DNA from: an uncultured Lachnospiraceae bacterium
Lineage (GTDB): Bacteria > Bacillota > Clostridia > Lachnospirales > Lachnospiraceae
Reading direction: 5' to 3'
Length of the DNA stretch: 12,567 nt
Assembly: GCA_945827765.1 (NCBI GenBank)
Contig: CALZPS010000021.1
Span: 1-12,567, forward strand
Shown: positions 2,434-11,954 of the stretch, in pieces
Layout of the letters: each line of letters begins with the position of its first letter
Numbering within the stretch: position 1 is the first letter of the stretch
Position numbers and translations under genes: made by a program
The notes under the pieces: model-generated
Told to the model about the DNA's origin: nothing
Database searches by the model: none
What the model saw: only the letters and a program-made list of their open reading frames with translations

Positions 2434-2987
2434 TACGGATACCTATAGACTCTTCTTCCGATTATCTGATGGAAGAGATTCAGGAAAACAATTTTGAGCT
2501 CGTGCCTATCAGCATTGTGCTGAATGGGGAGACATATATCGACGGTAAGAATCTCGAGCGGAACCAGTTTTACGAAATCATGGCTGAAACCAAGGCATTT
2601 CCTCAGACCTCACAGCCTTCCCCACAAGCATTTTTAGACATTTTCCGTAAATCCCACGTCAAAGTCATAGCGGCTCTCGATACACTGGAATACTTGGCCC
2701 GTGGCGGGCGCACCAGCCAGACTGTTGCCACTATCGGAAATCTGGCCAATTTAAAACCAATTATCACACTCAGTGAGGACGGAAAAGTCGAGATGATCGG
2801 AAAGTGTCTTGGCAAGAACAAAGCCATCCTTGTTTCCGGTATTTTACCGGCCACAAAGATGGCTCTTTTATTCCCAAATAATACATTCGCATCCGCGGAT
2901 TTGCCCCGTCCTCTTATGATTTACGGATACTCTCCGGCTTTTCAATCTGGTTTAACTGTGCATTTAATCCCAGCAGCATCTCTTTAG
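2430..2987 (+). pseudogene. DegV-family fatty-acid-binding protein remnant, internally deleted and 3'-truncated
   Basis: DegV proteins bind fatty acids for the FakA kinase system and are usually about 280 residues; this frame has 185, of which about 133 are recognisable. Residues 1-74 match the DegV N-terminus (MIRIxxDSSSD, then FPQTSQPSP at 57-65). The text then jumps directly to the late block DTLEYLARGGRTS (84-96) and KPIITL through GKNKA (109-132). Roughly 70-80 residues holding part of the lipid pocket are missing in frame, and about 100 C-terminal residues are absent. After residue about 132 the frame reads through a hairpin (2822-2864) and into the antisense of the convergent GH2 gene, overlapping it by 74 nt. 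It is translationally coupled to marR by ATGA. A short peptide may still be made, but normal DegV function is unlikely. Confidence 0.75.
2822..2872. terminator. bidirectional intrinsic terminator between marR-degV and GH2
   Basis: Arms at 2822-2833 and 2853-2864 pair over 12 bp with one non-Watson-Crick position (G-U in the minus-strand RNA, C-A in the plus-strand RNA). An inner perfect stem CCGGTA/TACCGG (2836-2841 with 2845-2850) closes a 3-nt loop. The plus side is followed by CTTTTATT; the minus side by TTGTTCTT, 50 nt after the GH2 stop. It therefore probably ends GH2 transcripts and also marR-degV transcripts, although it lies inside the open DegV-like frame. Confidence 0.65.
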
Positions 2988-5187
2988 TAATCTTCGGTCC
3001 GCCATCCGCACTCATCGTGCCGGCCATGCTGACCATACGAACCACCGTAAACCCATTCATCATCTGCAGCATGCCTTCCGACATTTCAAATCCGGCCGGT
3101 TTTGCAGCCTCTCCGTCTGCTCCGCCCATCATTTTTTTCATGATTCCGCCAAAAAGCTGTGCCCCCTGGGGACTTGCCATGATATCGCCGATCGTATCAT
3201 TAATGGAATAATGGCCTTCTACCTCAGTAATATCGAACCAGTTGATGATTGCACCTTTTTCTTTCAAGCGGTAATCCTCATTAAAGGTATCAACTTTACG
3301 AATGATACTTTCATCCCTGCACTCTCCGGCAACTGCGACGAGCGTGGTTGTTCCCACGTTTGGCACATCAAATTTAAAGAAATGGTCTTCCGCCGTTTTG
3401 ATTCCGAGACTCTTGCCATTTGCCAGCAACTCAACTTCCGGCTGATTGGAGTATACGGTAATCTTTGTCACATCCTCCACGCGGTCCACATATCTCTTTC
3501 CGCACAGATGTACAAACGGGTCATCCGACAACCATGCCTTATATGCATAGAAGGAATCCTTTTTATATTTTCTGTCAAATGTCATCAGACCTTTATGGTT
3601 CTGTCCATTTTCTCCGCCCTCGTTACGGGCATCCGCGCCAAAATCAAACATATTCCACACATGGGTCGCCCACAGATATTTTCTGGAAAACAACTGCTTG
3701 ATCAATTCTTCATGGTAATATGCCTGATATTCCTCGGTATAGTCTCCCTGTTTCGGGTCGGACGTATGCCAATTGAGTGCCTCGCATCCATACTCACTCA
3801 TTCCGATTGGGATATTCGGGAATGTCTTGTGGAAATTATCAAACCACGGACCATTCATGGATGTATCACCGCCATACCATCCAAAATAGTGATTGTAAGA
3901 GATCACATCCGGAATCTGGATATATGGGTCGTTGATATCGCACATGGATACGCAGGCCATCGTTGTCTTACGGGTTTTATCCATCTCATGGCACAAATCA
4001 TTCAATATGCGGTGATTTTCCAGCAAATCATCATCTGAGCCACTAATGGTGATTTCGTTGGAAAGTCCCCATACCACGATACTGGCATGGTTATAATTTT
4101 GTATAATCAATTCTTTCATTTGAGAAATCGTATTCTCCCTGCCGGTCGGCATATGTTTGGAAATGTACGGAATCTCCGCCCAGATTACCAGTCCTTTCTC
4201 ATCGCACAGGTCATAAAAATACTGGTCATGCTGATAATGCGCCAGACGAATCGTGGTTGCACCCATCTCACAGATAAAGTCAATATCTTCCTCATGGTGC
4301 TCCGGCAACAATGCATTTCCATATCCCCAACGGTCCTGATGACGAGATACTCCGCGCAGAGGATAACTCTCGCCATTTAAAATAAATCCATTCTCAGCAT
4401 CAATTTCATAAGTGCGGCAGCCGAATCTTGCAGAAATATGATCCAGAATCTGCTCACCACAAACCAGCTTTGCCTCTGCTGTGTACAGATATGGATTCTT
4501 CTTACCATTCCAGCGGATCACATTCTCAATCGTCAGATTTACTTTTGTCTTATCTGCCGGGCTGACTGCACTTGCAACCACTGCGCCGTCGGCATCTTTT
4601 ATGGTCACTTCTATCTTCTGCTCTGCTTTTGCATTGGTCAGATATACTTCTACCTCCACCTGTGCAGCGGAATCCTCAAGCTGAGGGGTAACACGGATGC
4701 CGGGTCCTCCATAATAATCCAAATCAAAGTGGGACTCTGATACCGCAATCAGATTCACATCCCGGTACATTCCCCCATAAAATGTAAAGTCTGCCATCTG
4801 CGGATATACCGTCTCATTTGCTGTATTATCCACCGCAACTACAATCAGATTCTGCTCTTCCAGAGCATCCGTCATGTCCACTCTCCAGGTAGAATATCCG
4901 CCGTCATGATGTGCCAGTTTCTTTCCGTTCACATAGACATCTGCTGAAGAATTAGTGCCCCGAAATTCAATGTAATATCTGTCTGCTGCCGGCAGTTCGG
5001 ATTTTTCCAGTTCTTTCGCATAATAGCAGGTTCCTCTGTAATAATCATTACCGCCGTCCTGACCGTCAATGGCATTCCAGCAATGCGGAATGTTGACCCA
5101 GTACCAGTTCTGCGGCATCGTTTCTGGTACGCAAGATGCCTCCTTGGAAAATCCCCATTTGTCATTAAAGTTGATAATCTGTCTCAT
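2914..5187 (-). CDS. glycoside hydrolase family 2, beta-galactosidase-like
   Basis: A 757-residue cytoplasmic retaining exo-glycosidase. Domain order: jelly-roll sugar-binding domain (about 1-150), immunoglobulin-like domain (about 160-260), TIM barrel (about 262-555), a beta-sandwich (about 560-645), then a Met-rich helical tail (about 655-750). The acid/base is E378 in WGLSNEI and the nucleophile is E465 in IGMSEYG. The RLAHYQHDQYFYDLCDEKG stretch (314-332) is the GH2 signature, and the NHKGLMTFDRKYKKDSFY stretch (530-547) resembles beta-galactosidases more than glucuronidases. No signal peptide is seen. A strong AGGAGGA site (5196-5202) lies 8 nt before the start. It follows the symporter gene on the same strand, separated by the folded element at 5220-5406, and its end converges on the DegV remnant. 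The exact sugar (beta-galactoside or another) is inferred, not shown. Confidence 0.88.
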   Translation of the reverse strand: MRQIINFNDKWGFSKEASCVPETMPQNWYWVNIPHCWNAIDGQDGGNDYYRGTCYYAKELEKSELPAADRYYIEFRGTNSSADVYVNGKKLAHHDGGYSTWRVDMTDALEEQNLIVVAVDNTANETVYPQMADFTFYGGMYRDVNLIAVSESHFDLDYYGGPGIRVTPQLEDSAAQVEVEVYLTNAKAEQKIEVTIKDADGAVVASAVSPADKTKVNLTIENVIRWNGKKNPYLYTAEAKLVCGEQILDHISARFGCRTYEIDAENGFILNGESYPLRGVSRHQDRWGYGNALLPEHHEEDIDFICEMGATTIRLAHYQHDQYFYDLCDEKGLVIWAEIPYISKHMPTGRENTISQMKELIIQNYNHASIVVWGLSNEITISGSDDDLLENHRILNDLCHEMDKTRKTTMACVSMCDINDPYIQIPDVISYNHYFGWYGGDTSMNGPWFDNFHKTFPNIPIGMSEYGCEALNWHTSDPKQGDYTEEYQAYYHEELIKQLFSRKYLWATHVWNMFDFGADARNEGGENGQNHKGLMTFDRKYKKDSFYAYKAWLSDDPFVHLCGKRYVDRVEDVTKITVYSNQPEVELLANGKSLGIKTAEDHFFKFDVPNVGTTTLVAVAGECRDESIIRKVDTFNEDYRLKEKGAIINWFDITEVEGHYSINDTIGDIMASPQGAQLFGGIMKKMMGGADGEAAKPAGFEMSEGMLQMMNGFTVVRMVSMAGTMSADGGPKITKEMLLGLNAQLNQIEKPESIRKS

Positions 5188-5219
5188 GTAACTGCTCCTC
5201 CTGTCCTTTTATTTCGTTC

Positions 5220-5406
5220 CTATTCACAGCCCCCCGCCATCATGCGTCCCCGTCGCCTCTGCGAGGCTTCAGTCCCGCTCCTTACGGAGCCAAGGCTGCT
5301 TATGAGGGCGGGGTGACTGCTTCACAGTCCGAATTTGGAATCGAACATATTCTCTTACGTGCAAGCACGACGAGAATTTATTCGATTCCAAATCGGCTGT
5401 GAATAG
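5220..5406. repeat. 187-bp multi-stem inverted-repeat element (MITE-like or structured RNA)
   Basis: The ends are perfect 12-bp inverted repeats (CTATTCACAGCC at 5220-5231, GGCTGTGAATAG at 5395-5406). Inside are nested stems: CCCCGCC/GGCGGGG (5232-5238 with 5307-5313, extended by TCATG/TATGA after one mismatch) enclosing GCCTC-TGC-GAGGC (5255-5267) and GCTCC-TTAC-GGAGC (5277-5290); a GACTG/CAGTC hairpin (5315-5329); and a 13-bp perfect stem (5333-5345 with 5381-5393) enclosing ATTCTC/GAGAAT and CGTGC/GCACG. Together they form a closed multi-branch fold. The element fills nearly the whole gap between the symporter stop (5412) and the GH2 ribosome binding site. No obvious target duplication flanks it. 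It could be a non-autonomous mobile repeat or an mRNA processing or attenuation structure. Confidence 0.75.
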
Positions 5407-5411
5407 TAACT

Positions 5412-6809
5412 TTACTTCTGCATTTTCTCATGTTTTTCTTTTAAGATACGCACATTTTCATCAACCTGTTTTTTGTGCAGCGGATACCAGAACCACAGTA
5501 CCAGCGCCAACAGCAAAAAGCCCAATCCCGGAACCAATGTGGAAATATTGAAAATTCCGTTCACAACCCCCTCGTCAAATGCGGTTGCTTTCGAATATCC
5601 GACCATCTCCAAAAGAAGCCCCGACAGACCTGCGGATGCTGCCTGACCAAGTTTTCTGGCAAAGGAATACAACGCGTAAACCGTTCCGTCTTCCCGCACG
5701 CCGTTCTTAATCTCGGAATAATCGATAACGTCCGTAATCAATGCCCAGCATACCATGGAAAACATGCCCAGACCAAACCAGCTCAGCAGCTGGAATCCTA
5801 CATAAACCCATACATTTTCCGGACGTAGGAAGAAAAGAATCGCGCAAATCGCCGCTGCCAGCAAATTCGATACGATACTGACTTCCGCCTTACCAAACTT
5901 CCGTGCACATGGTTTTGCAAGCACTCCGGCTATCAACATACCAACCATCATCATGATTGTCGATACAGACTGTGCCGTCGTATTTCCATAAAAGTTCGGA
6001 TATACATAGTTTGCCATCGACTGCATCGTCAACTGTGCGAGCAGCATCACGATAGACGCCACGATAATAGACACCAGTGCCCGGTTCTTAACAGCATTAC
6101 TCAACATCTTCAGAACCGTATTGTTCACCTGAACCTCTTCCGATACTTCCGGTTTTACACGCTCTGTAGTAAGTGTATAGCACAGCAGGTAGCAGCCGAC
6201 CGCACAAAGTGAAAACACACCTGCAATGATTGTAAAACGGCCGCCGTTCATGACACTGTTTCCGTCTATTTTATCATAAGCCACCATCGGCACGCCTGCA
6301 CCGATAATCAGTCCGGCCAACATACCGCCCATCGTACGGAATGTGGAAAGGGACTGGCGGTCTTCCGGCTCCGGGGAAATGGCAGACGCCATGGAGCCGT
6401 AAGGAATATTGATGGAAGTATAGAAAATCGACCCCCACAAAATATACGTCACAAACAGATAACCAATCTTAAACGCCATCGGCATTCCGGCAAGTCCACT
6501 CTGATAAATTAAAAATGATGCGATTGCCACAGGCGCACACATTCTGCGTATCCATGGTTTGAACTTTCCGACCGGCGTCATTTTACTTCTGTCACAGATC
6601 CGTCCCATTGTGACATCCGTCACTGCGTCCACAAACCTTGCAAGCATCATGATAATACCAACCACGCCTGCAGACACTCCCATCACGTCTGTATAAAATT
6701 TCAGCAAAAAGCTGGATGAGAGGATAAAAGTGAAGTCATTTCCGAAATCTCCGAACATGTACCCCAGCTTGTCTCTCAAACCAAATGGTCTGATCTTCTT
6801 TGTTTCCAT
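5412..6809 (-). CDS. GPH-family (MelB-type) sugar:cation symporter
   Basis: A 465-residue inner-membrane transporter with about 12 hydrophobic segments, the usual size for the glycoside-pentoside-hexuronide:cation symporter family within MFS. The N-terminus carries the family pattern GDFGNDF (20-26). RFVDAVTDVTMGRICDR (59-74) holds D61 and D65 at the positions of the two cation-binding aspartates of MelB helix II. It likely imports an oligosaccharide or glycoside with Na+ or H+. An AAGGAAGG site (6818-6825) precedes the ATG. The GH2 gene follows on the same strand, so the two probably form an uptake-and-cleavage unit. The gene is divergent from the AraC-type regulator at 6995. The true substrate cannot be told from sequence. 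Confidence 0.9.
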   Translation of the reverse strand: METKKIRPFGLRDKLGYMFGDFGNDFTFILSSSFLLKFYTDVMGVSAGVVGIIMMLARFVDAVTDVTMGRICDRSKMTPVGKFKPWIRRMCAPVAIASFLIYQSGLAGMPMAFKIGYLFVTYILWGSIFYTSINIPYGSMASAISPEPEDRQSLSTFRTMGGMLAGLIIGAGVPMVAYDKIDGNSVMNGGRFTIIAGVFSLCAVGCYLLCYTLTTERVKPEVSEEVQVNNTVLKMLSNAVKNRALVSIIVASIVMLLAQLTMQSMANYVYPNFYGNTTAQSVSTIMMMVGMLIAGVLAKPCARKFGKAEVSIVSNLLAAAICAILFFLRPENVWVYVGFQLLSWFGLGMFSMVCWALITDVIDYSEIKNGVREDGTVYALYSFARKLGQAASAGLSGLLLEMVGYSKATAFDEGVVNGIFNISTLVPGLGFLLLALVLWFWYPLHKKQVDENVRILKEKHEKMQK

Positions 6810-6850
6810 AGTTAAGCCCTTCCTTTCTCATAATAAAATCACATCTGTTG

Positions 6851-6874
6851 ATATAGTATTGTTTAACACTATAT
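6851..6874. promoter_or_regulatory. 24-bp imperfect palindrome upstream of the symporter gene
   Basis: ATATAGT (6851-6857) and ACTATAT (6868-6874) are exact inverted repeats, with further partial symmetry in the 10-bp spacer. It lies 42 nt upstream of the symporter start in the divergent region, so it may be an operator. A convincing minus-strand -35/-10 pair was not found here, and AT-rich DNA can show such symmetry by chance. Confidence 0.4.
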
Positions 6875-6929
6875 GTTCCATGCCTGTTAGTATATTTTTT
6901 ATATTTATCCGAATAATTTTTGTGTATTA

Positions 6930-6958
6930 TTGAATCCCTCTAAATATTATACTATAAT
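6930..6958 (+). promoter_or_regulatory. sigma-A-type promoter of the AraC gene
   Basis: TTGAAT (6930-6935) and a perfect TATAAT (6953-6958) are separated by exactly 17 bp. The predicted start is near 6965, giving a leader of about 30 nt. A GGGAGAAG ribosome binding site (6980-6987) precedes ATG 6995. Confidence 0.75.
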
Positions 6959-6994
6959 TAGAGAAAAATCATACGTTCCGGGAGAAGAACACTT

Positions 6995-8230
6995 ATGTTT
7001 TATGATGCGCAGCTTTCCTTTTTAAAAAAAATTCTCAAACAATATAATATTGACTGCTGTTTCATTCCTCACAAGGGAGACCACGATATTTCCTTTGAAA
7101 CAGATATTCGCAACTTTGTCTATAATCAGATATATAACAGAAACGCAATTGAAACTTTGAAATCCCAACTGCAGCAAAATGTAATCTATCAATGCCGGGA
7201 TATCCTGGACTGTCAGTATTATATGCTGCGCCTTCCCGACACTGACCCAGAGCAGATACTTCTGGCAGGACCATACACGGATGTCATCTTTTCCCGTGAA
7301 CATATCCTCCCTCTCATGGAGCGCATCGGACTGCCTTCTGAACTTGTATCTTCGCTGGATGTTTTTTACAGTTCTGTTCCGCTGATTGCAGACGCCCACA
7401 TTTTATTTGCTATTTTCAATGCTTTTGGTGAAACGATTTTTCATAGCGTGGAAAATTTTTCCTTTGAAAATATTGCAGACTCCTCCATTGCCAATGTATC
7501 CGATATATTAAATGTATCTATTCCTACAGAACAGGAAAATGTTTCTTTCAAAATAAAACAACTCGAAGACATTTATCAGGCAGAAAACAAACTGCTGACT
7601 ATTGTGTCAAAAGGAATGATCCATCAGACCGAGTTTTTTACCGATAATATAGAACGCATGACCTATATGATGGAACAGCGTCTGCCGGATTCTATCCGTA
7701 ACCTGAAAAATTATTGTATCATTCTGAATACCCTGCTTCGGAAGGCTGCTGAAAAAGGCTCTGTCCATCCGTTCCACATTGACAAAATATCCTCTGCCTA
7801 TACACGGAAAATCGAACTCATCAACTCAGCAGAAAACGGGAAAAAACTGCAAAAAGAGATGATACGCAAATATTGCCTGATGGTCCGCAATTTTTCAATG
7901 AAACAATACGCACTTCCCGTACAAAAAGTCATGATTCATATAGATTCACAATTATCCGCGGATTTGTCATTAACCGCCATGGCAAACATGTTACAGATAA
8001 ACGCCAGTTATCTTTCCGCTTTGTTCAAGAAAGAAACCGGCGTTACGCTCACAGAATATGTAAATAAAAAACGAATCGACCACGCCATCCTGCTATTGAA
8101 TTCCTCTGACGCACAGATTCAGACCATAGCTCAGCATTGCGGGATTACAGACGTCAATTATTTTACAAAATTATTCAAAAAACAAGTCGGAAAGACACCG
8201 AAAGAATACCGGGCGCTGATACGAAAGTAA
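6995..8230 (+). CDS. AraC-family transcriptional regulator
   Basis: A 411-residue regulator. The C-terminal ~99 residues are a typical AraC/XylS double helix-turn-helix: LSLTAMANMLQINASYLSALF for the first helix pair, IQTIAQHCGITDVNYFTKLF for the second, ending with GKTPKEYR. The N-terminal ~310 residues have no family I can name. They begin with a soluble alpha/beta-looking region containing the sequence QILLAGPYTDV, followed by a long helical linker, and probably sense a ligand. No membrane segment is seen. The gene is transcribed away from the symporter-GH2 pair, the usual layout for a local activator of an uptake operon; that target is inferred. It converges on the gene at 8269-9123 with a gap of only 38 bp and no clear terminator. 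Confidence 0.9.
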   Translation: MFYDAQLSFLKKILKQYNIDCCFIPHKGDHDISFETDIRNFVYNQIYNRNAIETLKSQLQQNVIYQCRDILDCQYYMLRLPDTDPEQILLAGPYTDVIFSREHILPLMERIGLPSELVSSLDVFYSSVPLIADAHILFAIFNAFGETIFHSVENFSFENIADSSIANVSDILNVSIPTEQENVSFKIKQLEDIYQAENKLLTIVSKGMIHQTEFFTDNIERMTYMMEQRLPDSIRNLKNYCIILNTLLRKAAEKGSVHPFHIDKISSAYTRKIELINSAENGKKLQKEMIRKYCLMVRNFSMKQYALPVQKVMIHIDSQLSADLSLTAMANMLQINASYLSALFKKETGVTLTEYVNKKRIDHAILLLNSSDAQIQTIAQHCGITDVNYFTKLFKKQVGKTPKEYRALIRK

Positions 8231-9305: not shown

Positions 9306-11954
9306 TTATTTCACCGCAAATGCCACTTTCGCGCTCTTTGCCTCGCCTTTGTATTCCACAAATACAGTAACCAGAGCCGTACCTTTTCCGACCGCCGTTA
9401 CCATACCGCTCTCATCCACGGTCACAACCTCACTGTCGCTTGAAGTGAAGACTGGCTTGTGCTCACACAGACACAGTCTGGTACTGTCAAGCAATGTCGC
9501 CACCGGTTTAATCTTTGCCGTCTGGCACAGTTCAAGCACCTGTTTGTCGCTCACAGCATATACATTTCCTAAAGGTGCATCCCACTCACCGCTAATCTGC
9601 ACTTCCTGACAACATACGATGTCAGCACTGCTGCGTCCGATCTCCACACGGTATGTGCCGCTCTCCACAATCAGTTTCTTGCGCAGGTAGCTCCAGAAAT
9701 TGATGTCACTTACAGGCACGGTAAGTTCTACAGTCTTTGTCTCTCCGGCTTTTAAGAATACCTTGTCAAATGCTTTCAGCTGACGCACCGGTTTGTTGTC
9801 GTCCGTTCCCTGCGGAATGTTCTTGCCGATATAAAGTTCGACGATCTCTGCCCCGTCATATTTGCCGCTGTTGGTCACGTCCACACTGACTTTCAGCACA
9901 TCGTTGGCATCCAGTTCAGTCGCACTCAGTTTCATATTTGAATAATCAAACGTCGTATAGCTTAAGCCATATCCGAACGGGAAGATTGGCTCCCCTTTAT
10001 AATACATATAGGTTCTGGTCTTGAAATTAACTGTATCATGCTTGCGGATACCGTAATCATTGAGCATCGGCAGTTCATCCACGTCTTTGTACCATGTAGC
10101 CGTCAGCTTGGCATTCGGATTTACCTTGCCGAACAATACATTGGCAATCGCAGTTCCCTGTTCCTGTCCTGCAAAATGCTCATTGAGAATGGTATGTGCT
10201 TTCTCGAAGAATGCACCGCCAACTGCACCCAATGTCTGCAGCACAACGATTGTATTATCATTAACTTCCAATAATTTCTGAATTTTCTCGCTCTGTCCGT
10301 AAGGCAGCTCCAATGTATCGCGGTCATGTTCCTCAGAGGCATTAGTTGCATCGGTTCCGGCGATCACGATGACACAATCTGCTGTCTTCGCAGCCTCCAG
10401 TGCGCGGTCAAACAGTTCGTCATTATCCTTCTGGAAATCCGGATCCTCAGGTACATGATGCTCAGGAGATGCAAATGCCACACCAACTTCCTGCAACGTT
10501 GCATTCGGTCCCATGAAATCTGCCATCATCTGCTGCATAGCCGCCATTGCTTCCGGATCAGCCGCTGCTGCCGCCGCGTCACTGTCTCCGCCTGCAGGTC
10601 CTGCTCCCGGAAGAAGATCTGCCACGCCGCCTGCTTTGAATTCTTTGCCGCTGCACCATCCTTTTTCATAGACAACTTCCACGCCGCTGCCCTCTAACTC
10701 GCGTCTGATACCTTCCAGTGCCATCACATTGACCGGAGTATCCACAACTTTACTCATACTTCCTGCACTGTAGCCGCCAAGCTCACGGTAAATTGCATTC
10801 GGCCCGACTACCAGCACCTTCTTCATATTATTTTTATCCAACGGCAGGAGCTGTTTGTCATTCTTCAACAAAACAATCGTATCGTTTGCCATATCTACCG
10901 ACAACGCTTTCATCTCGTCGGAGCAAATGCTTTCCTTGCCGATACCGGAATATGGAACGTGAGATTTCTCGTCAAACAATCCCAGACGGAAACGAACCGT
11001 GAATATACGCACCAGTGCACGGTCTAAGATATCTTCCTCAATCAATCCTTCCTGCATCGCCTGCAGCAGATTGTACTTGTGCTCTGTTCCACAGCTCATA
11101 TCTGTTCCGGCAATCAATGTCATCGCCGATGCCTCTTTCATATTTTTTGCATAATAATGACCGGACAGTTTCTCACCTGTTCCCATCGATGCAAACATCG
11201 GACTTTCATAGACATCGCCTACTGCTCCGCAGTCCGATACGACAAATCCGTCAAATCCCCACTCCTCACGCAGAAGAGTTGTCAAAAGCATATCATTGCA
11301 GGAGGACGGCACGCCATTGACTCTGTTGTAGGATGTCATGATGGACTGAGCCCCTCCCTCGCGGATAGCATACTCAAATACCTTTGTATAATACTCTCTC
11401 AGCGTCGCCTCATCCACATTGGAAGAGCCACGGTGACGGTTATTCTCCGAACTGTTCAGAGCATAATGTTTCGGCGTGGAAACTACTTTGATATATTTTT
11501 CATCGTCTCCCTGCATACCCTGTATGTAGCTTGCAGCCATTTTTCCTGCCAGATACGGATCCTCACCAAAGTTCTCGTCGCTTCGACCGTTGCGCGGGTC
11601 ACGTGCCAGATTTATGGTCGGACACCACATATGCAGCTCGTCTCCGTCAATATTATTATAAGCACGGCACTCGTCTGCAATCGCGCTTGTCACTTTCTTA
11701 ATCTTCTCTCTGTCCCAGGACTGACTCATAGCCAGACACACCGGATAGCTGGTTACATCCATCGGACGGAACTTAAACGGTCCGAAATATCCGTGCGATG
11801 CTTCACTCCAATAGTTATAGTATGGTACGTCAAGACGCGGAATGGCCGCTCCGTGGTTGCCTAACTGGCTGATTTTCTCCTCCAACGTCATTCTTGACAC
11901 CAAATCTGCCGCACGCTCTTCAAAACTGTACGATTCATTCTTGTAAATTTCCAT
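9306..11954 (-). CDS. glycoside hydrolase family 3 (beta-xylosidase/beta-glucosidase-like) with Fn3-like and BIG2 domains
   Basis: An 882-residue intracellular beta-glycosidase without a signal peptide. The GH3 N-terminal barrel (about 10-330) holds KH at 162-163 and the nucleophile D241 in GFVVSDCGAV, a form common in xylosidase-like members. The second GH3 domain (about 355-665) contains SEEHDRDTLELP, where E541 or E542 is the candidate acid/base. A ~70-residue Ala/Met/Gly-rich insertion (about 440-510) splits this domain. The Fn3-like domain covers about 690-775. A BIG2-type domain (about 810-880; FTSSDSEVVTVDESG then AVGKGTALVTV) ends the protein, which is odd for a cytoplasmic enzyme. 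The ribosome binding site is AAGGGGAAA near 11964. It has its own promoter with a palindromic operator upstream and its own terminator downstream. Substrate preference is not determinable here. Confidence 0.88.
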   Translation of the reverse strand: MEIYKNESYSFEERAADLVSRMTLEEKISQLGNHGAAIPRLDVPYYNYWSEASHGYFGPFKFRPMDVTSYPVCLAMSQSWDREKIKKVTSAIADECRAYNNIDGDELHMWCPTINLARDPRNGRSDENFGEDPYLAGKMAASYIQGMQGDDEKYIKVVSTPKHYALNSSENNRHRGSSNVDEATLREYYTKVFEYAIREGGAQSIMTSYNRVNGVPSSCNDMLLTTLLREEWGFDGFVVSDCGAVGDVYESPMFASMGTGEKLSGHYYAKNMKEASAMTLIAGTDMSCGTEHKYNLLQAMQEGLIEEDILDRALVRIFTVRFRLGLFDEKSHVPYSGIGKESICSDEMKALSVDMANDTIVLLKNDKQLLPLDKNNMKKVLVVGPNAIYRELGGYSAGSMSKVVDTPVNVMALEGIRRELEGSGVEVVYEKGWCSGKEFKAGGVADLLPGAGPAGGDSDAAAAAADPEAMAAMQQMMADFMGPNATLQEVGVAFASPEHHVPEDPDFQKDNDELFDRALEAAKTADCVIVIAGTDATNASEEHDRDTLELPYGQSEKIQKLLEVNDNTIVVLQTLGAVGGAFFEKAHTILNEHFAGQEQGTAIANVLFGKVNPNAKLTATWYKDVDELPMLNDYGIRKHDTVNFKTRTYMYYKGEPIFPFGYGLSYTTFDYSNMKLSATELDANDVLKVSVDVTNSGKYDGAEIVELYIGKNIPQGTDDNKPVRQLKAFDKVFLKAGETKTVELTVPVSDINFWSYLRKKLIVESGTYRVEIGRSSADIVCCQEVQISGEWDAPLGNVYAVSDKQVLELCQTAKIKPVATLLDSTRLCLCEHKPVFTSSDSEVVTVDESGMVTAVGKGTALVTVFVEYKGEAKSAKVAFAVK

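Follow-up and report, generated by a model that had tools for sequence, protein, structure and literature searches.

A structured MITE family in Lachnospiraceae with a copy between symporter and GH2 genes and a likely relationship to the Clostridiales-1 RNA

Background

Clostridiales-1 (RF01699) is rated, in a published table, as 'probably' an RNA and as probably not cis-regulatory (PMC2864571). The bcr1-bcr3 repeats of the Bacillus cereus group are described as short dispersed MITE-like repeats that are often located in UTRs or operons, and bcr10 and bcr18 have a conserved secondary structure (PMC3446304). IStrons join a ribozyme with an IS, that is, a structured RNA with DNA transposition (PMC4227781). 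In our literature searches, which covered titles and abstract openings and had most subscription papers outside their scope, the element analysed here was undescribed and Clostridiales-1 was not called mobile.

This element lies in a window of 12,567 nucleotides from contig CALZPS010000021.1 of an uncultured Lachnospiraceae bacterium. It resembles the bcr repeats in being short, dispersed, MITE-like and structured, but it occurs in other hosts and does not show their TTTAT-type insertion motif, as its own 8-bp target duplications vary. In the manner of IStrons, it would combine a structured RNA with DNA transposition, but it has neither a group I intron match in Rfam at the gathering score nor an internal transposase gene. 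With an IS4-family element found in a related genome it has in common the type of terminal inverted repeat (TIR) and an 8-bp flanking repeat (7 of 8 positions), but the likeness is limited to the ends, and no transposase is encoded within it. The reading that we favour, with a probability of about 0.8, is that the element is a copy of a short non-autonomous MITE family that is moved in trans and whose RNA fold serves its own persistence.

Results and discussion

Genomic context and borders of the element

The element is flanked on the minus strand by an upstream gene for a sugar symporter of the MFS_2 family (5412..6809; PF13347, 270.6 bits) and a downstream gene for a GH2 glycoside hydrolase (2914..5187; PF02836, PF00703 and PF02837). 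The genes at 38-1747, 9306-11954 and 6995-8230 extend this pair to a set of genes for apiosidase-like, GH3 and GH2 proteins, a symporter and an AraC-type regulator, a setting that resembles a glycan-use cluster. An ORF of the DegV family (2430-2987) overlaps the GH2 gene at its 3' end; its 185 aa match a 280-position profile in two stretches, and it may be truncated or internally deleted. A tRNA search of the whole window found none. The genome assembly comprises 1.8 Mb and is 69% complete.

The sequence-only reading had described a closed multi-stem element fitting exactly between the symporter stop codon and the ribosome-binding site of the GH2 gene. The fit is borne out by the minus-strand coordinates: the stop codon occupies 5414-5412, the element then runs from 5410 to 5216, and AGGAGG at 5202-5197 precedes the GH2 start codon ATG at 5187. 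The perfect 12-bp inverted repeat (5220-5231 and 5395-5406) was likewise confirmed, and the closed multi-stem structure stands, but the borders originally given, 5220..5406, were too narrow. The 12-bp repeat sits inside a pair of 16-nt TIRs at 5216-5231 and 5395-5410 (94% complementary, one mismatch), and the element is now delimited as 195 bp at 5216..5410, with its sense strand corresponding to the minus strand of the window. Over positions 1-196 of a covariance model, it scored 200.9 bits in cmsearch, a value to be read with the window copy being one of the 30 sequences behind that model.

In the element sense, inverted-repeat pairing identifies the 5' TIR as GTTACTATTCACAGCC (5395..5410, minus strand) and the 3' TIR as GGCTGTGAATAGGAAC (5216..5231, minus strand), which has one mismatch to the other end. 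The TIR pattern GTTACTATTCACRGCC was present in seven of the eight genomes searched, and a reversed control pattern gave no matches. Flank comparison revealed an 8-bp repeat on either side of the element, GAAGTAAA at 5411..5418 and GAAATAAA at 5208..5215 (both minus strand; 7 of 8 positions identical), which represents a putative target-site duplication. As GAAGTAAA holds the last symporter codon AAG and the stop codon TAA, the exact fit between stop codon and ribosome-binding site would have arisen through insertion of the transposon at the stop codon, with duplication of that codon, and the symporter and GH2 genes would therefore both have stayed intact. The longest ORF wholly within the element has 40 aa and there is no transposase gene, so that the element, at 195 bp with paired 16-nt TIRs, has the properties by which MITEs are defined.

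Further copies and host range

The genome that contains the window carries three further copies: a full copy on contig C155, 95% identical to that in the window (9 mismatches over 195 positions), a full but divergent copy on C66 and a partial copy on C102. Others were found in related genomes. At E <= 0.001, 27 of the 150 family-level genomes had a match to covariance model R1, the genome under study among them. The match was strong in 17 of these (best E < 1e-15) and weak in the other 10, which had one or two matches each; the best loci of the latter (L145-L154) have the capped hairpin, mostly with other closing helices, and gave no Rfam match at the Clostridiales-1 cut-off. The number of R1 matches per genome reached at least 16, in a scan that scored 16 candidates.

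A search with the core pattern returned 48 stretches in named genomes, 14 of them in one Merdimonas assembly; 43 of the 48 are labelled Lachnospiraceae or belong to genera that we take to be members of this family, and five are labelled only Eubacteriales or bacterium. In an order-level sample of 196 genomes, nine had a match at E <= 1e-6, and seven of these nine belong to the same family. Of the two loci from outside it, L316 fits Clostridiales-1 better (111 bits) and L315 has GTTAC-type ends. The fold is conserved among related copies, and these apparently belong to a single bacterial family. A blastn search against phages and plasmids gave no match, and the core pattern was absent from viral_contigs. 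The TIR pattern occurred there in 11 stretches, among which R1 was convincing only in L123, a copy with an exact 8-bp duplication; L126 gave a 30-nt R1 match (E 0.0024).

A scan of 100 of the loci gave 110 matches, from which 10 duplicates on the opposite strand were removed. Several individual loci have peculiarities of their own. Internal-deletion derivatives that retain both TIRs were found at L087, L096 and L109, and in L096 and L109 the break is at a CTG(T/C)GAA-like stretch common to the P3 hairpin and the TIR. One copy (L191, 1471-1650) is located near a 6S RNA gene and another (L212, 1052-1217) overlaps the edge of a TwoAYGGAY RNA match. Further short structured elements, which have the GTTACTRTTCAC-type ends of the family and other interiors, are present in L253 (172-315 and 3281-3414), L251 (3183-3324) and L254 (409-550); the two elements in L253 have a common GTAAGAARGTGATTCAGG motif.

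A branched fold maintained by compensatory changes

The RNA fold of 5187-5412 has a predicted energy of -93 kcal/mol, against -57.1 kcal/mol (sd 4.2) for dinucleotide shuffles, none of which was as good (z -8.5, 0 of 200). The further stems that had been noticed inside the terminal repeats resolve into a long hairpin, a small hairpin and a branched domain with two inner hairpins, all kept across relatives. The long hairpin H1 (5332..5394, minus strand as for all parts of the fold; helices 2-4) has an apical G(CUUG)C loop and a UAA/GU internal loop. In alignment A1, which consists of 30 copies, 25 of the 26 pairs of H1 show compensatory change; its sequence is almost freely variable and the pairing is retained. 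In a wider set of 100 copies (A2), the apex conforms to N(CNNG)N in 92 copies and is GCUUGC in 66. The small hairpin P3 (5315..5329) has compensatory changes in four of its five pairs.

The branched core (5232..5313) consists of helix P4 with a 2x2 internal loop, followed by a three-way junction. Its helix 6 has 17 pairs, nine with compensatory change, and the junction is supported by alignment columns 118 and 165, where U-A is replaced by C-G in five sequences. An RNAalifold pairing of columns 140-143 with 163-167 was dropped because columns 118 and 165 covary, as was a CAGUC/GACUG pairing for the same reason. Of the two inner hairpins, P7 (5255..5267) has five pairs, four with compensatory change. 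The other, P6 (5277..5290, GCUCC-GUAA-GGAGC), is 100% paired but almost invariant and hence gives no covariation support. Its loop is GUAA in 29 copies of A1 and GCAA in one, which makes it GNRA in 30 of 30, as opposed to only 30 of 100 in A2.

Taken over the whole fold, the check for covarying base pairs that the sequence-only reading had proposed gave a positive answer, with at least one compensatory change in 48 of the 73 pairs of A1. Paired cells amounted to 94.0%, compared with 81.0% in shuffled and 33-42% in slid alignments, and the covariation score was 0.395 against 0.155 in the control. The copies in A1 were hand-picked among those with readable ends, and some genomes contribute more than one; the compensatory changes were counted without a tree, and kinship among copies inflates these counts. 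Across the family, compensatory changes preserve most of the interior as a single branched structure, and on this pattern of substitution the fold is selected.

A plain palindromic MITE, with stems left over from an inverted-repeat origin and an unselected interior, would also fold, as TIR-bounded palindromes do by nature, and the deleted and partial copies among the loci inspected are in keeping with such an origin. We consider this very improbable in view of the inner helices of A1, in which 282 cells have changed on both sides of a pair, compared with 79.6 after shuffling. Nor did the reduction to a local palindrome, which the sequence-only reading had foreseen for a stretch with neither copies nor covariation, apply here.

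Target duplications and a candidate autonomous partner

The element has TIRs and occurs in copies at sites that are unrelated to one another, and insertions of the family leave target duplications of 8 bp. Among 89 copies with intact ends, 22 are flanked by exact 8-bp duplications and 38 by duplications with at most one mismatch, where 0.58 are expected and where 500 shuffles of the flank partners gave a maximum of three; some of the 38 represent the same insertion in related genomes (L041, L046). These 89 copies were taken from 139 distinct flank pairs, the other 50 being without intact GTTAC-type ends. For duplications of 4, 5, 6 and 7 bp, the counts were 9, 4, 4 and 4, compared with shuffled means of 6.3, 2.5, 1.1 and 0.4 (the shuffled maximum at 7 bp was three), and for 9, 10 and 11 bp they were 1, 0 and 0. 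The remaining 51 of the 89 intact copies have no near-exact 8-bp duplication, as old copies might show. In the genome under study, the copy on C66 (L165) has an exact 8-bp duplication, CCGCACAT, and the flanks of the copy on C155 have three mismatches in 8 bp.

A candidate for the source of the transposase was found in genome G124, in the form of a 1,748-bp element that is complete from end to end, with two identical TIRs of the same type, GTTACTATTCACAGYC, as those of the short element. The transposase that it encodes has 461 aa and belongs to the IS4 family (NF033592, 167.9 bits with a cut-off of 115; PF01609). The flanks of the element, AAAATTCG and AAAATTTG, form an 8-bp repeat that is alike at 7 of 8 positions. 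This IS4-family element is likely the autonomous partner, as judged from the shared ends. Transposase homologues were detected in three of the 11 genomes searched (G115, G124 and G199), with the one complete partner in G124; there was none in the 69% complete genome that carries the window, nor in seven other genomes with copies. Draft assemblies often lose such repeats. The G199 contig with the transposase homologue (L257) begins at CAATGTCATT, which is the sequence just inside the G124 TIR. A distant transposase locus in G115 (L258) has only poor TIR matches (2 of 12 positions mismatched), and no TIR matches were found at L257, L259 and L260. Three further loci with TIR pairs 1.5-2.8 kb apart (L249, L250 and L251) were rejected, as the enclosed genes, inspected by eye, are not transposases. 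The early suggestion of a MITE-like repeat is supported by the copies found elsewhere, by the TIRs and the 8-bp duplications, and by a candidate for the autonomous partner.

Orientation, related operons and regulation

The same suggestion had a second part, according to which domestication could have turned the repeat into a site of mRNA processing or attenuation. The fold in the operon mRNA would then be cut or would stall transcription and so set the ratio of symporter to GH2 protein. This reading could draw on the sense orientation of the element within the presumed operon, its exact position from stop codon to ribosome-binding site and its very stable fold. The observations do not support it. 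Between co-directional genes, we counted 37 elements in sense and 38 in antisense orientation (119 of 128 elements, with duplicate flanks and short contigs left out and genes picked by crude ORF calls), and the antisense copies are as well paired as the sense copies (mean pairing 0.928 in 33 and 0.928 in 30 copies, respectively; P = 0.99). With orientation even and pairing equal, the fold seems not to act via the host mRNA of a given copy. A terminator scan of 5000-7000 returned two sites, 5793-5778 and 6085-6073, both inside the symporter gene. No intrinsic terminator, for which a stem with a T run after it is required on the transcribed strand, was returned for the element or its borders.

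Examination of 30 loci, including that in the window, identified three close syntenic symporter-GH2 operons (symporters 68-73% identical), all three without the element. The gap between the genes is about 30 bp in two of these operons and about 115 bp in the third, and these gaps are too dissimilar to that of the window to display the unduplicated target. Three more loci with a distant upstream transporter (23-24% identical) are also without the element. Taken together, these observations make domestication at this locus improbable. Copies are closer to stop codons than to start codons: again by crude ORF calls, the distance is at most 15 nt in 36 of 116 stop-facing copies and in 13 of 120 start-facing copies. 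This is the pattern that purging of insertions upstream of genes would produce.

Even orientation bears as well on an RNA-level splicing or mobile element, for example an IStron-like intron that removes itself. The ends of the fold coincide with the ends of the element, and the union of ribozyme and IS in IStrons offers a precedent. However, insertions show no sense bias, and besides the lack of an Rfam match at the gathering score, the weak matches include no intron or ribozyme, so we regard self-removal as extremely improbable.

RNA or single-stranded DNA

The wobble pairs favour one strand. In 68 non-redundant copies, G-U cells outnumber A-C cells by 172 to 84 when read in the element sense, i.e. 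on the minus strand of the window, and by sequence the bias goes this way in 42 copies and the opposite way in 10, with 16 ties. The excess is found mainly in H1 (69:23) and the closing helix (34:16), and the P4 domain is even (35:38). The count on A1 was 83:43 with an earlier pair list and 83:35 with the final one, and the asymmetry may come partly from alignment choice and composition. The sense strand also folds better in 52 of 56 copies; when 40 of the 68 copies were shuffled by mononucleotide, composition alone accounted for -5.4 of the -8.2 kcal/mol difference between the strands. As composition thus explains most of its signal, this test of strand by folding energy was discarded.

Loops of the CUUG and GNRA types are characteristic of RNA, and the wobble bias and the CUUG-capped hairpin suggest an RNA from the minus strand. 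A sense-strand RNA appears more likely than a single-stranded DNA. The alternative, that the fold is needed in transposition as single-stranded DNA or a cruciform, is in agreement with a DNA folding energy that is also extreme (5220-5406, z -9.2, 0 of 200 shuffles as good), with a closing helix that is exactly the TIR pair, with the even wobble counts in P4 and with the even orientation relative to genes that a DNA-level need would give. On the other hand, TIRs together with duplications of a constant 8 bp fit transposition by a DDE enzyme, which generally does without an inner fold, and the overall one-strand wobble bias and the C-NN-G apex fit RNA. We consider a DNA-level role unlikely, though a serious competitor. 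The proposal of a structured RNA is probably right overall: it has the covariation and, more weakly, the strand bias on its side. At the Rfam gathering scores the window gave no match, and its kinship with Clostridiales-1 is below threshold.

Relationship to Clostridiales-1

The closest Rfam family is Clostridiales-1, which scored 32 bits against the window (cut-off 48) and 35.7 bits against the best other copy. Its model matched four of 20 loci of the element family at E <= 0.5, all in sense orientation (E 0.00031 to 0.34), and R1 in turn matched seven of 24 Clostridiales-1 loci at E <= 5, again all in sense orientation (best-hit E 4.5e-9 to 0.081). These cross-matches rest largely on the CUUG-capped hairpin. 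By eye, both families seem to have a closing helix, a long hairpin with a GCUUGC apex and an internal loop U[GA]AGCA/UGCG[AC]A. Clostridiales-1 is dispersed too, with 35 matches at E <= 0.001 in the genome under study and at least 52 in G009 (52 of the 52 scored). In contrast to the element, it has a third hairpin, where the element has P3 and the P6/P7 junction, and its own ends are TGATGTTGGGGTCAAAAG-like (TGAT) rather than of the GTTAC type. The element family is likely kin of Clostridiales-1.

The Clostridiales-1 loci examined (L218-L247 and L291-L309) come from the genome under study (G000) and from G009, G013 and G014. In the analysis of ends, 27 loci were examined, 26 gave a right-end candidate and 14 passed the end filter. 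Eight exact 5-bp duplications (0.67 expected) and three exact 6-bp duplications (0.21 expected) were found in these 14 copies with readable, TIR-like ends, some of which had also contributed to the end consensus. Nine Clostridiales-1 loci in the genome under study (L294-L302) are without those ends.

Genome G179 contains copies of the element core with another end, CCCGAATTATTCACAGC (L142, L208, L209, L211, L212, L214, L216 and L217). In these eight copies, 5-bp duplications are exact in five and have at most one mismatch in seven, compared with a mean of 2.1 and a maximum of 6 for the one-mismatch class in shuffles; the sample is small and the flanks are AT-rich. The ends in G179 differ from those of the other copies in a way suggesting an exchange of transposon ends. 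We tentatively propose, as a possibility rather than an expectation, a superfamily of selfish structured RNAs in this bacterial family with Clostridiales-1 as one branch, in which one core, made up of the CUUG-capped hairpin and an internal-loop domain, would be combined with at least three end types: the GTTAC type with 8-bp duplications, CCCGAATT in G179 with 5-bp duplications, and TGAT in Clostridiales-1 with 5-bp duplications. The RNA in such a superfamily would act in trans or in its own mobility, which would be why the core is conserved and the ends are exchanged.

Conclusion

A structured MITE family is well supported by these data; no description of it was found in the searches made, and it is likely kin of a known Rfam family. 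In the scenario that we favour, an IS4-family transposase recognising the TIR GTTACTATTCACAGYC would move the element in trans. Insertion into the short gap of the symporter-GH2 operon would have duplicated the stop codon, and the operon mRNA would now include the element in sense orientation. Its fold would matter as RNA from the element's own sense strand and would serve the persistence of the element, through spread or host tolerance, and not the neighbouring gene, and if GH2 expression were affected at this locus, this would be a side effect.

In a MITE, little apart from the ends is usually expected to be conserved. Here most of the interior is held by compensatory change, and some step seems to read the fold. 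For annotation, the locus is a warning that a strong fold reaching from stop codon to ribosome-binding site in an operon can be an insertion and not a regulator. The comparison with Clostridiales-1 suggests that this family, catalogued as an sRNA, may be mobile-element cargo, and the finding makes it possible to ask if a transposon may be dependent on an RNA of its own.
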